From Candidatus Methanoperedens sp. (lineage in GTDB: Archaea; Halobacteriota; Methanosarcinia; Methanosarcinales; Methanoperedenaceae), in NCBI GenBank assembly GCA_026552975.1, contig JAPMTR010000085.1, positions 1 to 36,673 of the forward strand: 36,673 nucleotides of DNA, read 5' to 3'. The notes beneath the pieces were generated by a model. The model saw only the letters and a list, made by a program, of their open reading frames with translations. It was not told where the DNA came from and did not search any database. Of this stretch, positions 22,324-36,005 are shown piece after piece. Within the stretch, counting starts at the first letter, position 1. The number at the start of each line of letters is the position of its first letter. A program made the translations under genes and the position numbers.

Positions 22324-22434
22324 GCCCAGGTGGCCTAGTCGGTTAGGGCGCCAGACTCATAGGGTATATTTGAAGAGGCGCTTAAAGTCTCCTGAGAAAT
22401 CTGGAGGTCACGGGTTCGGATCCCGTCCTGGGCA
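22324..22434 (+). tRNA. tRNA-Met (CAU) with a 37-nt intron
   Basis: Acceptor GCCCAGG pairs with CCTGGGC, the T arm is ACGGG-TTCGGAT-CCCGT, the anticodon stem is CCAGA/TCTGG, and the anticodon CAT lies at 22358-22360. The intron is 22362-22398, after position 37. A canonical bulge-helix-bulge is visible: CTCA (22356-22359) pairs with TGAG (22393-22396), flanked by the 3-nt bulges TA^G and AA^A. Splicing gives 74 nt; CCA is not encoded. It looks like elongator Met. Ile2 with a modified CAU cannot be fully excluded. A T7 run follows. Confidence 0.92.
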
Positions 22435-31315: not shown

Positions 31316-31390
31316 GCTCCGATAGTGTAGCACGGCCAATCATGTCAGACTCTCACTCTGACGACTGGGGTTCAAATCCCCATCGGAGCA
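31316..31390 (+). tRNA. tRNA-Glu (CUC)
   Basis: GCTCCGA pairs with TCGGAGC, the anticodon stem TCAGA/TCTGA encloses CTCTCAC with anticodon CTC, and the T arm is GGGG-TTCAAAT-CCCC. The discriminator is A at 31390 and CCA is not encoded. No intron is present. A TATA box (CTTATATAG, 31252-31260) lies about 56 bases upstream. Confidence 0.95.
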
Positions 31391-32204: not shown

Positions 32205-32450
32205 ATGAAACGCAAAGAATTAAGTGAAGCAGCTGTCCGAAGAAACTATGCATTCAGTCAGCGCACAATTGAAAACTTTAATTGGCTAATTGACCGTAAG
32301 ATATACAGGAATGAGACTGAAGCTATTGATCTTGCAATTGAACGCATGCGGACTATTTATGAAATGAGGGAAGAAGACTCAAAAGTGTCAAATCAAGAAA
32401 AACCCGATGACATTAAAACGTCTAAAAAAGTTAAGACTGCCGGAAATTAA
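32205..32450 (+). CDS. Small RHH-like DNA-binding protein
   Basis: The 81 residues read KRKELSEAAVRRNYAFSQRTIENFNWL, then ETEAIDLAIERMRTIYEM and a Lys-rich tail. A strand (NYAFS) followed by two helices with an NETEAIDLAI turn fits a ribbon-helix-helix fold with an N-terminal extension. There is no ribosome site, so the transcript is probably leaderless. Tandem palindromes overlap its promoter. No toxin partner lies directly downstream, only structured non-coding DNA. Confidence 0.6.
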   Translation: MKRKELSEAAVRRNYAFSQRTIENFNWLIDRKIYRNETEAIDLAIERMRTIYEMREEDSKVSNQEKPDDIKTSKKVKTAGN

Positions 32451-32594
32451 CCATATTCTCGCTGGAATATTCCTCAAGCATTAGAAAGGGTCAGGGGAAT
32501 CTGTCCCATGCGCACGTTCAAGAAAAAGACGATACAAATGCAGAGTATAATGAAACATATAGCAAGGTCAGTAAAAGTTTCAGCGTCTCAGCAG

Positions 32595-32718
32595 GAGGAT
32601 TTGTACTCACCCCGGGGGCACAGCTGCCCCTTCATGGGCATTGAGTATAAATCCTCGTGAACTGCAGCTTCCGGCATTTCGACAAATGCTGATCATGTGG
32701 GGTCGCCACCCCAACATG
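32595..32718. other. Two GC-rich hairpins in a non-coding stretch
   Basis: GAGGATTTGTACTCA (32595-32609) pairs with TGAGTATAAATCCTC (32642-32656), one G-U pair. Inside it GGGGCA pairs with TGCCCC across CAGC. A second hairpin is CATGT-GGGGT-CGCC-ACCCC-A-ACATG (32694-32718). They lie between the RHH gene and the metallopeptidase gene. A 50-codon frame (32508-32660) crosses the first hairpin, but I doubt that it is a gene. Confidence 0.45.
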
Positions 32719-32734
32719 ACTATGATCGAATTCT

Positions 32735-33379
32735 TCAACCGGTACAGGCTGCAGCTTGCTGCGGTATATTGACCGCAGCCGGGCTTGTTTTTGTCCTGTC
32801 GATCACAAACGTAACAACTTTCTCGATCCTGGACAGGGAATTAAGAAGTTCCCTGAAACTGTAGTTTTCTATATATTCCCTGACATTTCCCAGGGGGATC
32901 TTATAGCCCATGAGATGCCCGATCACAGCTGCGCCAAACTCTGCTATTACTTCCTGATCGTTCCTCTGGCCGGGTTTAAGACCGTTTAGCCTGTAATCAA
33001 CTGCATGGCAAAGCTCGTGAAGGAATACCTCGATATCAGGACTGGCAAGCCGAATATTCTTGTTGACCAGGTTATATGATCCATAATCCCCGCAAAACCG
33101 CACAGGAACAACCTTAAGGCCAAGTTCCTGGATGATGCCGTTAAACTCGCAGGGAATATTGACCGTGAAGTTTTCATATATCAGAGGCGCGCCTTCAGTG
33201 TCTTCGCTTCGAAAAACTGGGATACCCCTGATCTGAACCTTGTATCTGTGGCCGTTCTTGCCGTTTACGGCCTCGAAATATTCAAAGCGGTTCAATACCC
33301 TGATCCCTGCAGATCTTGCAAGCCTTTTCAGGGTGTCCGTATCCCTGACATTTTCAAAGCTATGATCTATCTTCATCAT
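32735..33379 (-). CDS. ArdC-like zinc metallopeptidase
   Basis: The 214-residue protein has the zincin motif His121-Glu122-x2-His125 (FLHELCHAVDYRLNG) and a downstream EVIAEFGAAVIG whose Glu147 can be the third ligand. This order resembles the metallopeptidase domain of antirestriction protein ArdC and MPTase-type domains carried by plasmids and viruses. The N-terminal about 100 residues may be the substrate or DNA-binding part. It overlaps the preceding 68-residue gene by 4 nt. Base composition is visibly more GC-rich than the housekeeping genes, suggesting transfer. Confidence 0.65.
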   Translation of the reverse strand: MMKIDHSFENVRDTDTLKRLARSAGIRVLNRFEYFEAVNGKNGHRYKVQIRGIPVFRSEDTEGAPLIYENFTVNIPCEFNGIIQELGLKVVPVRFCGDYGSYNLVNKNIRLASPDIEVFLHELCHAVDYRLNGLKPGQRNDQEVIAEFGAAVIGHLMGYKIPLGNVREYIENYSFRELLNSLSRIEKVVTFVIDRTKTSPAAVNIPQQAAACTG

Positions 33380-33776: not shown

Positions 33777-33935
33777 ATGACTACAAAAAGCATAAGGCTC
33801 GACGAGGAAACATATAATAAACTCAAGGCAATACAGGATCAATATAATGATCTGACTTTTTCCCAGATCCTGGACTTTCTTATAGACTCAAAGGTGGATA
33901 TGAAGAAACTGGAAAAGATTTCAAGATCTCCCTGA
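33777..33935 (+). CDS. Short ribbon-helix-helix protein (VapB-like)
   Basis: This 52-residue protein is easily missed because of its size. It reads MTTKSIRLDEETYNKLKAIQ, then FSQILDFLIDSKVDMKKLEK: a strand, helix A and helix B of a ribbon-helix-helix domain, with the typical TYNKL turn. Family members of this size are antitoxins or element-encoded repressors. It has no strong ribosome site; the TATA-like TATAAA just upstream and the direct repeats suggest tight autoregulation. No toxin gene follows, only the structured GC-rich DNA. Confidence 0.65.
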   Translation: MTTKSIRLDEETYNKLKAIQDQYNDLTFSQILDFLIDSKVDMKKLEKISRSP

Positions 33936-34497
33936 GTCGGCGCGCAGGCGAACAGCTTCAAACCGTGCGAGTTTAAAACCATCCCCTTCAGGCGCAAACC
34001 GAATCACGGGCAGGCGCAGCGATACCCCACCAGGAAACGGGCGCATAACTGAAAACATCGCGAAGCGCGTGGAAAAGAGGTATCCAGGGAGGTTGGAGCC
34101 TGACCCTGCCACAAAAGAAAACGACATACGACAGGACAACCACATTGGATAGAAAAAAACCTGTGCGCCCTCAATACGAAGAGGAACATTCAAAAGAGTA
34201 TATCCGTGGTGTCATCGCCTGCCCTGCCAGATAGATGAACGAGGAATGAGATTATGATGGCTCGTCGCCGTGCGATTTTTTGCCGCAGCAAAAAACCCTT
34301 CAGGGCGAGCCTTCATTATCTCAGGCGTCGATGACGCTGGCAGGAGCAGGCGGCAGCACGGATATTACCTTTTTGCGTGAACGGAGTATATCAGAGAATT
34401 ATGTTGATGCAAAAAAATCCTAAATAAATCAATTTATATAAAGAGATAGACACATTTATTTAATAGCAAGATTAATAGTAAAATGTAAGGGTGGTAC
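33936..34497 (+). ncRNA. GC-rich non-coding stretch, candidate structured RNA
   Basis: This gap of about 560 bases has no convincing gene and is clearly richer in G and C than its surroundings, except the last 130 bases, which are AT-rich and hold the promoter of the next gene (TTTATATAAAG, about 34433-34443). The core 34200-34365 folds on itself through four nested helices. They are 9 bp (34200-34208 with 34357-34365), 15 bp with one bulge (34216-34230 with 34337-34352), 17 bp with two T-T mismatches (34248-34264 with 34306-34322) and 8 bp with a CGCA loop (34276-34295). A side hairpin GCGTC/GACGC lies at 34325-34337 and CAGGG/CCCTG at 34085-34108. Confidence 0.5.
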
Positions 34498-35511
34498 ATG
34501 TCTCTCAAAGAAAATGGCGTGAATCAACAATCAGTTCTTGATGAAGCAATGATTTTCTCAAAAAAAATGGAATACAGTAATGAAAGGGCTAAAGATATAG
34601 ATACCCAACAAATAATCAATGATTTTGGAAAATACAAGTTTTATTTTCATCTCACAATGAAACCTGAATTTCGAAGGTTTGCTACAATCAGGAATTATAC
34701 AAAGCATAATTGCTGGCGGTTCTTTTTCTATTCACAGAAATATTCAGTTACTAATGGATTTACAACTGTCAGTCCATCTCAATACAGGGCATTAAGTAAT
34801 ATTTCTCCCAACCCTCCGATCAATTTTTCAAATGGAAAGAAAGATTTCATCATAAAAGATGGAATTGATCAAACGTGTATTATTTGCAGAGGGAAAAAAT
34901 ACATTAACTGTGAATATTGTTCTGGTCGTAAAATAATCACATGTTCCGATTGCAATGGCAACAAATACATATTTGAAAATCCAAATACTCCTGAGAAAGT
35001 TCCCCCCAATAATAAAGAAATGAATACAATGAATCCTGTCAAATGCAAGACCTGTAATGGTAAAGGGAATGTCAAATGTTCAAAATGTGGAGGAACTGGT
35101 GAAAAAAGATGTGATTTTTGTGAGGGATCAGGAGTCACTTTTTCAGTTGATAAACATAGAATGAAATATTTTGTTGACCCCCAAATACAGACACTCTATG
35201 GAGATATACCCAAGAATAGAGGTGATAAATTTAGAGGGAAAAAAGAAATAGAACGGAATTTTATTGATCCTAATCCACCGTTTCAAGAAGGCATTTCAGC
35301 GTGTCGTATAGAGGGATTCAGTATCCCAATACTATTACTTGATGTCTATTTTGAAGGCAGGGAGTATAAAATTTATTATGACTTACATAATAAAAAATTT
35401 CAATGGAACGGTTATCCAGTCGATCATATGAGGATTATGGTTTCATCATCAATATTCATTTTGAGTCTATTTGTAATAATATATTTTCTGACAAATGGGA
35501 GGATTATTTGA
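34498..35511 (+). CDS. Membrane-anchored DnaJ-type zinc-finger protein without J domain
   Basis: In the 337 residues, the middle (about 123-216) has repeated Cys-x2-Cys-x-Gly units: CIICRGKKY, CEYCSGRK, CSDCNGNKY, CKTCNGKGN, CSKCGGTGE, CDFCEGSGV. This is the DnaJ cysteine-rich pattern, split by a roughly 30-residue insert. No HPD-containing J domain is present. A single membrane helix (MVSSSIFILSLFVIIYFL) ends the protein, so it is probably tail-anchored. GGGTGGT precedes the ATG. Role is unknown: zinc-dependent chaperone-like binding or an element-encoded factor. Confidence 0.75.
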   Translation: MSLKENGVNQQSVLDEAMIFSKKMEYSNERAKDIDTQQIINDFGKYKFYFHLTMKPEFRRFATIRNYTKHNCWRFFFYSQKYSVTNGFTTVSPSQYRALSNISPNPPINFSNGKKDFIIKDGIDQTCIICRGKKYINCEYCSGRKIITCSDCNGNKYIFENPNTPEKVPPNNKEMNTMNPVKCKTCNGKGNVKCSKCGGTGEKRCDFCEGSGVTFSVDKHRMKYFVDPQIQTLYGDIPKNRGDKFRGKKEIERNFIDPNPPFQEGISACRIEGFSIPILLLDVYFEGREYKIYYDLHNKKFQWNGYPVDHMRIMVSSSIFILSLFVIIYFLTNGRII

Positions 35512-35582: not shown

Positions 35583-36005
35583 TTATACAGCATTGATTAA
35601 CACCTTGAAGTTATTCTTTATTTTTCCTTTACAATCAATCCAGTAGATAGCGATATTATGACTTTTAATAAAGTCAATAAAAGCAGTTGAAATATAGCCA
35701 TGAGACTTTGGAGTTATAATAATTCTTTCCAGTTTTGAAAGGTCTATTGGATAATTTGTTTTTCCATCTGTCTTTATATTCTTTCCCTTCATACGATTTT
35801 CATAAAAATCAAGTCGTCTTTTAATTTTTTCTTGAGATAAACCAGCTTTTGTATATTGCTTAAGTAACGATTCTTTCAATTCGTTAAGATCGCTTTCACT
35901 GTAAGGTCTTTCTATCTTCTTACCTATTTGAGTATATACTGGTTTATTATCCTGTTGCCTTAGAGCGAATGCGCTATTTATCAATAAAGATGTTTCTAAA
36001 CTCAT
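35583..36005 (-). pseudogene. Cas1-like N-terminal fragment
   Basis: Residues 88-130 read IDLSKLERIIITPKSHGYISTAF followed by KSHNIAIYWIDCKGKI. That resembles the end of the Cas1 beta-strand domain, where a central L.RI.....G.IS..A......NI.I...D..G pattern is typical. The C-terminal helical nuclease domain of about 200 residues is absent: the frame stops after NFKVLINAV and I found no continuation in other frames. Residues 35-75 are an unusual Lys/Glu-rich helical insert. It could be a decayed solo Cas1 or casposase, or a stand-alone domain. Its start codon lies inside one copy of a 17-nt direct repeat (36002-36018). Confidence 0.45.

Follow-up and report, generated by a model that had tools for sequence, protein, structure and literature searches.

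A long hairpin in Candidatus Methanoperedens belongs to a larger conserved non-coding element, possibly a structured RNA carried by mobile DNA

The DNA that we analyzed (the window) is a 36,673-nucleotide stretch from Candidatus Methanoperedens sp. (GenBank assembly GCA_026552975.1, contig JAPMTR010000085.1). Near its right end, a non-coding stretch that follows a small RHH-type gene folds into a long, irregular hairpin. What is this hairpin, and does it stand by itself? We found that it is one arm, which we will call P4, of a larger conserved non-coding structure and not a stand-alone 166-mer. We propose, at roughly even odds (about 50%), that Candidatus Methanoperedens has a new family of large structured non-coding RNAs, borne by tRNA-targeting mobile elements and read from left to right, in which P4 forms a long arm at the periphery.

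The first-pass annotation described a GC-rich hairpin of four helices at 34200-34365, in AT-rich DNA, as a unit of 166 nucleotides. The fold is as described: its minimum free energy (MFE) is -88.9 kcal/mol, versus -53.1 +/- 4.1 for dinucleotide shuffles (z = -8.7), and 0 of 200 shuffles were as good. The island is real as well, with a GC content of 0.548 for the hairpin versus 0.395 for the window (the spacer that runs from the RHH gene up to the hairpin has 0.53). The size of the unit did not hold up, as the conserved element spans 34037-34397 and the hairpin is just one arm of it. Among 732 stretches of the window (166 nucleotides each, in steps of 50, plus the exact interval, with MFE regressed on GC content), the hairpin was the most extreme (z = -7.45); the stretch that is one base off scored -7.37 and the next independent stretch scored -3.91. 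A 9-bp stem (ATATCCGTG/CACGGATAT) closes the 166 nucleotides. Inside it, the helices are interrupted by a bulge on one side and by two T-T mismatches, and there is also a side hairpin and a loop of sequence CGCA. Pairing continues outwards to about 34189-34380. The reverse complement is about as stable as the + strand (MFE -83.7, z = -8.5). Variable sites within P4 are spread evenly over the would-be codon positions (4, 6, and 6), so there is no codon periodicity. A second non-coding stretch, at 32545-32815, is also strongly folded (MFE -105.3, z = -5.8, 0 of 200 shuffles) and is the second most extreme in the window; it falls in a stretch that is conserved in G013, G006, and G030a (G numbers are our handles for genomes and copies).

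Table 1. Positions, in the window, of the parts of the conserved element and of its left-hand neighbors
Feature	Position	Strand	Basis
tRNA-Glu (CTC), left neighbor of the putative mobile element	31316-31390	+	Rfam / tRNA scan
81-aa gene, found in each of the five close loci, where it separates tRNA and element	32205-32450	+	
Small gene of RHH type, an inconstant neighbor (3 of 5 close loci)	33777-33935	+	
Conserved non-coding element (5' domain, linker, P4; without the relatives' 3' part)	34037-34397	+	sequence comparison
GGGCGCA, able to pair with TGCGCCC at 34164-34170	34039-34045	+	MFE fold of 34037-34397
P1, mini-hairpin CGC-GAA-GCG	34059-34067	+	read in 13-copy alignment
P2, conserved 5' motif GAGGTATCCAGGG..GGAGCC..CCCTG	34077-34108	+	alignment A3, model R2
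A-rich variable linker	34113-34160	+	23/48 positions vary, five close copies
GTGCGC, 5' strand of long-range helix	34163-34168	+	3' partner after P4 in 10 other copies
Small hairpin CCTC..GAGG ahead of P4	34169-34184	+	fold
P4, long hairpin plus outer TTCAAAAG / CTTTTTGCGTGA pairing	34189-34380	+	fold, alignments
P4 outer stem, 5' arm (3' arm 34357-34365)	34200-34208	+	fold
P4 middle stem, 5' arm (3' arm 34337-34353)	34216-34230	+	fold
P4 inner stem, 5' arm (3' arm 34306-34323); T-T mismatches 34253/34317 and 34258/34312	34247-34264	+	fold
Apical side hairpin, CGCA loop 34284-34287	34276-34295	+	fold

The element in the window is about 360 nucleotides long, with its left end at 34037-34039 and its right end at 34397. 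It is 94.5% identical to copy G004a over 362 columns and 90.4% identical to G030a, and similarity breaks off at about 34037 and about 34397. In relatives, the conserved block is longer, at about 0.9-1 kb: G030a, G004a, and G006 run about 560-600 nucleotides further than the window copy. Over 1008 columns, the blocks of G030a and G004a are 89.6% identical, while the G006 block matches in two pieces (92% and 83%). G013 has the same parts, but with about 850 nucleotides after P4 where the others have some 140. Copies that we call type 3 (G004b, G030b, G025, G004:C32, and G006:C28) have a different, partly alignable 3' domain. By eye, we spotted GNRA-like tetraloops in the 3' block. We also noticed by eye that the G007 copy has no P4 yet retains what normally flanks it to the left and right. 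In the genome of the window, a search for the relatives' 3' part gave a single weak match (115 nucleotides, 71%), so the window copy, which is without this part, may be reduced or decaying. That genome has one full copy of the element; the 7 other matches there are of 14-25 bases, with E values of 0.9 or worse.

How widespread is the element? A 211-nucleotide query matched 9 of the 31 genomes of the genus at E <= 0.01, including its own genome. Four other loci share the query nearly whole (94-96% identity); the remainder share the ends only and have a different inner stem. A pattern search of named genome contigs found 18 loci, of which nine are archaeal (five named Methanoperedens, one named Methanoperedenaceae, and three with broader names) and nine are bacterial; we take the bacterial ones to be chance matches. 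A covariance model of P4 (R1) matched 17 of the 34 genomes of the family. This overstates the number of full copies, because R1 also picks up isolated inner palindromes (matches to model positions 54-139) and the reverse strand. A profile of the 5' domain (R2), run at E <= 0.001 against 185 genomes from the whole order, matched 13 of them, in 17 places, and all 13 belong to one of the 27 genera, Candidatus Methanoperedens. Within the family, R2 matched 18 of 34 genomes at E <= 0.1, with weak matches counted; one of these weak matches, G007, is a real copy on reading by eye. The element had no match in a plasmid collection and just a 26-nucleotide chance match in a phage collection (in two records of one cyanophage), and two patterns had 0 and 0 matches among viral contigs.

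We also came across other palindromes. Near positions 1500-1660 of four loci from four genomes (L041, L043, L044, and L045), a palindrome like the P4 inner stem lies by what seems, by eye, to be the same small gene. The dispersed palindromic repeat CACAGAGCAC...GTGCTCTCTGTGG (L029:2665-2792) has very many copies across the 31 genomes among the matches listed, and two of the element's copies carry it as an insertion. And we considered that the apical hairpin CGCCGCAGCG might be a genome-wide REP, as it occurs at 158 places in 31 genomes (versus 43 for a reversed control). We rejected this idea: of 29 loci, 18 were readable in + orientation, and by eye, only the already known G003 copy folds as such a palindrome.

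Do the copies preserve the pairing? The annotation had named homologous copies whose changes do not preserve pairing, along with a lack of expression on either strand, as grounds for dropping the structure; we found copies with compensatory changes. Alignment A2 has 8 sequences and 41 pairs. Pairing holds in 89.1% of its cells, and both sides have changed in 13 of the 41 pairs; neither value was reached by any of 500 shuffles, although the tested structure has the advantage of having come from this very alignment, and the counts inherit places where MAFFT misaligns parts of P4 between copy types. With the partners slid, as a control, 38-50% of cells paired and 2-6 pairs changed on both sides. 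The number of further pair types did not stand out, as 138 of 500 shuffles did as well. In the divergent copies, the inner stem has been replaced while the architecture is kept, and compensatory changes are present. The isolated T-T mismatches of the inner stem occur in 9 of 14 copies, including some whose stem sequence differs; they are absent from G003, both G025 copies, G005, and G027.

A hexamer ahead of P4 (GTGCGC in the window) can pair with a hexamer after P4 in the 10 copies tested besides the window. We first picked these hexamers by eye. In nine of the 10 copies, all six pairs are standard, and in the other (G025x), five are. The pairings are GTGCGC/GCGCAC, ATGCGC/GCGCAT, and two wobble variants (the 3' hexamers are GCGCAC, GCGCAT, GTGCAC, and GTGCAT), and they include 3 G-U pairs and 0 A-C mismatches. 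The two hexamers are 46 to 249 nucleotides apart in the nine contiguous copies. The 3' partner was not found in the window copy; the 5' hexamer is absent from the type-2 copies G024, G017, and G003, and by eye, G005 has no 3' partner. In the window, the predicted GGGCGCA/TGCGCCC pairing would compete with the long-range helix for GTGCGC.

Constraint is uneven across the element. In the five close copies, the linker varies at 23 of 48 positions, P4 at 16 of 183 (p = 5e-9 for linker versus P4), the P2 motif at 3 of 39, and P1 at 2 of 19. Inside P4, 7 of 144 paired positions and 9 of 48 unpaired positions are variable (p = 0.005). At the pair 34230/34337, the close copies have G-C, G-U, or A-U. 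The pair 34216/34352 is C-G in the window and C.A in the four other close copies, which argues against pairing of these bases on the + strand. Relative to G004a, the element (94.5% identical) is more conserved than most of its flanks but not all of them: the flank by the tRNA is 93.7% identical, and the others are 86.3% and 84.8% identical.

The suggestion that the hairpin is part of a mobile element is supported by the tRNA neighbors and by the comparison of loci. The same tRNA-Glu gene is upstream of the element in the window and in G030a, and the contig of G004a starts inside it. The element is near tRNA-Ala in G013 and tRNA-Gln in G006, and a truncated copy in G030:C7 is about 500 nucleotides from tRNA-Leu. 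Since close copies lie by genes for four different tRNAs, they are probably carried by a mobile element that targets tRNA genes. In G013 and G006, tyrosine integrases lie within 100 nucleotides of the tRNA, in varying positions: the G013 integrase separates the tRNA from the element, and the G006 integrase lies beyond the tRNA. The other copy-bearing loci that we scanned mostly have no tRNA nearby, and a search for a repeat of the tRNA end, which would mark the other side of the mobile element, found none. No protein is common to more than 5 of the 11 loci that we compared, and the 81-aa gene of the close loci has no match in Pfam or NCBIfam. G004a has DUF932, RadC, and AbiEii genes as neighbors, and the distant copies G024 and G017 have ParB-like genes. 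In G030b, a 4.8-kb insertion (L026:5125-9903) with group II introns, maturase genes, and TTCAAAA at both borders parts the 5' domain from P4. In the window, conservation ends directly ahead of a 337-aa protein (34498-35511) that has DnaJ-type cysteine repeats, with BSD2_CRD just above its cut-off; this is a possible cargo gene. Further on, a 140-aa ORF (35583-36005) matches Cas1 weakly and below the cut-off (E = 0.0066), probably by chance.

We considered other explanations for P4. The annotation also suggested an RNA partner for the RHH gene, and P4 might be a regulatory RNA or operator for that gene. The RHH gene (which scores 17.7 bits against VAPB_antitox, below the cut-off of 27.9) is on the same strand, its stop codon (33935) is about 100 nucleotides from the start of the element (34037), and it is upstream of the element in G013 and G006 as well. 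However, relatives of the gene are present in 3 of the 5 close loci and 0 of 6 other loci, and because the element is conserved in loci that lack the gene, a constant partnership is refuted; we think that this explanation is very improbable. We give just as little credence to P4 being a terminator or a 3' untranslated hairpin. It is very stable and does follow a + strand gene, but a conserved 5' domain and linker precede it, the upstream genes differ between loci, and the nearby + strand matches to terminator-like patterns fall inside the hairpin itself. A passive, MITE-like repeat of nested palindromes, spread by transposition and unused by the cell, would account for the terminal inverted repeats (AAAAGAGTATATCCGTG / CACGGATATTACCTTTT), for the occurrence of the inner palindrome alone elsewhere (such as G004:C43), for partial copies in several genomes, and for insertions within copies. 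Against it stand the few copies per genome (R2 found 17 places in 13 genomes), the strongly uneven constraint on the linker and the helices, and the conserved motifs that are not palindromic; we consider it improbable.

P4 might instead act as DNA: it could be an extruded or single-stranded hairpin, as in integron attC sites, that is used for the recombination, transfer, or replication of the mobile element. Several of our observations are consistent with this. The two strands are about equally stable when folded, and of 14 copies, 5 have the better fold on the minus strand. There are not many wobble pairs, and they have no strand bias (15 G-T, 15 A-C, and 867 Watson-Crick pairs across 14 copies), although this test has low power and does not discriminate, as the SRP RNA control is equally unbiased (72 G-T and 86 A-C; 20 of 28 SRP loci were used, without 5 whose flanks were too short and 3 that were weaker or partial). 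Isolated mismatches number 4 and 4, and here too the SRP control has no strand bias. G-U pairs account for 54 of 898 in the MFE folds of P4, a smaller share than in SRP RNA (301 of 1992). Furthermore, irregularities are conserved within stems that change freely, and tyrosine integrases are close to the tRNA in two loci. In the window, G013, and G025, DNA that is not part of the element begins a short way past P4, and in G025 a hicAB pair lies between two P4 copies that point the same way. On the other hand, long conserved parts that are not palindromic flank P4 in a block of 0.9-1 kb, the G007 copy retains the rest without P4, the long-range helix has G-U pairs and no A-C, and the R'' and R' boxes of attC sites were looked for by eye and not seen. 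A DNA site is the main rival of the RNA reading, but we lean against it. The compensatory changes, the long-range helix whose only wobbles are G-U, the conserved non-palindromic motifs, and the copy without P4 argue for an RNA.

If the element is an RNA, does it belong to a known class? Rfam 15 covariance models had no match above the gathering score inside the element, in agreement with the annotation's view that the hairpin fits no known class. In the window, Rfam reported just two tRNAs, and sub-threshold matches around the hairpin had E values of 2.4-9.6. (We also noticed a tRNA match at 22324-22434 that ARAGORN did not report; it is 111 nucleotides long for a model of 71 positions, which suggests an intron.) In eight copy-bearing loci, Rfam matched tRNAs and group II introns only, all outside the element; in four further loci, matches in or near the element were sub-threshold only (best E = 0.42); and in the G030a block there was no match up to E = 5. 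We found no description of the element in the literature (open-licence papers were covered). Relative to Rfam 15 and this literature, the sequence comparisons suggest that the element is probably a new family.

By its setting, the nearest kind of RNA is GOLLD and ROOL. These large ornate RNAs are described from phages and prophages, where they frequently lie close to tRNA islands and have no known function (PMC12286853). Our element is likewise large, structured, non-coding, and on mobile DNA near tRNA genes (tRNA-Glu in three loci, then tRNA-Ala, tRNA-Gln, and tRNA-Leu, with integrases in two loci). It is not a member, because no Rfam family matches; also, it is archaeal, its transcript is predicted only, and it has a plain long arm where the described folds are rich in pseudoknots. 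OLE RNA, which has been described from Gram-positive bacteria, is similar in being a large structured RNA, as our candidate found by comparison would be, but it does not match the element.

The DNA-level systems also resemble P4 in part. Integron attC sites have R'' and R' boxes at their ends, and their stems vary freely, whereas the bulge and the mismatches persist, as they guide recognition and determine which strand is used. P4 is likewise an imperfect palindrome with changeable stems and conserved irregularities, and it adjoins possible cargo genes (toxin-antitoxin cargo in one locus). However, the conserved part of our element is much larger, and no integron integrase is tied to all copies. 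MITEs have high copy numbers and target-site duplications. Like MITEs and REPs, P4 is an intergenic palindrome whose inner stem occurs alone at some places; unlike them, the element is low-copy (1 full copy in its own genome), with long non-palindromic conserved parts and uneven constraint. As for group II introns, they are inserted in one copy (G030b), and no group II model of Rfam matches the sequence of the element proper.

How might such an RNA work? From sequence, we infer that the element is transcribed, and on the + strand. In 4 of the 5 copies examined, a TATA-like box begins 35 nucleotides before the conserved left end (we relied on the usual spacing of archaeal promoters); the four are nearly identical there, and the window copy lacks the box. 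The transcript would start near GGGCGCAT and cover P4. P1 and P2 would form a core together with the 3' domains, tied by the long-range helix. P4 would be an expandable, rigid arm, with the one-sided bulge and the U-U mismatches as points of recognition for a protein. It is doubtful, but conceivable, that the RNA would be a trans-acting scaffold that helps to maintain or spread the mobile element, as has been supposed for the large phage RNAs. A bolder version of our proposal, which we consider unlikely, is that this is an archaeal counterpart of GOLLD and ROOL: a giant ornate RNA family (up to about 0.9-1 kb) that arose in Methanoperedens and moves between its genomes on tRNA-targeting elements, with P4 as an expandable arm and with two competing pairings of GTGCGC that could switch the fold.

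In bacteria and phages, mobile DNA is known to encode large structured RNAs. The proposed family, so far found in Methanoperedens only, has a natural variant without the arm and several tRNA neighbors, and would offer an independent system for probing what such RNAs do. If P4 is a DNA site instead, then it would be a large site in archaea that is recognized by its structure. The family would also mark a family of mobile elements in a genus that is known for its unusual extrachromosomal DNA.
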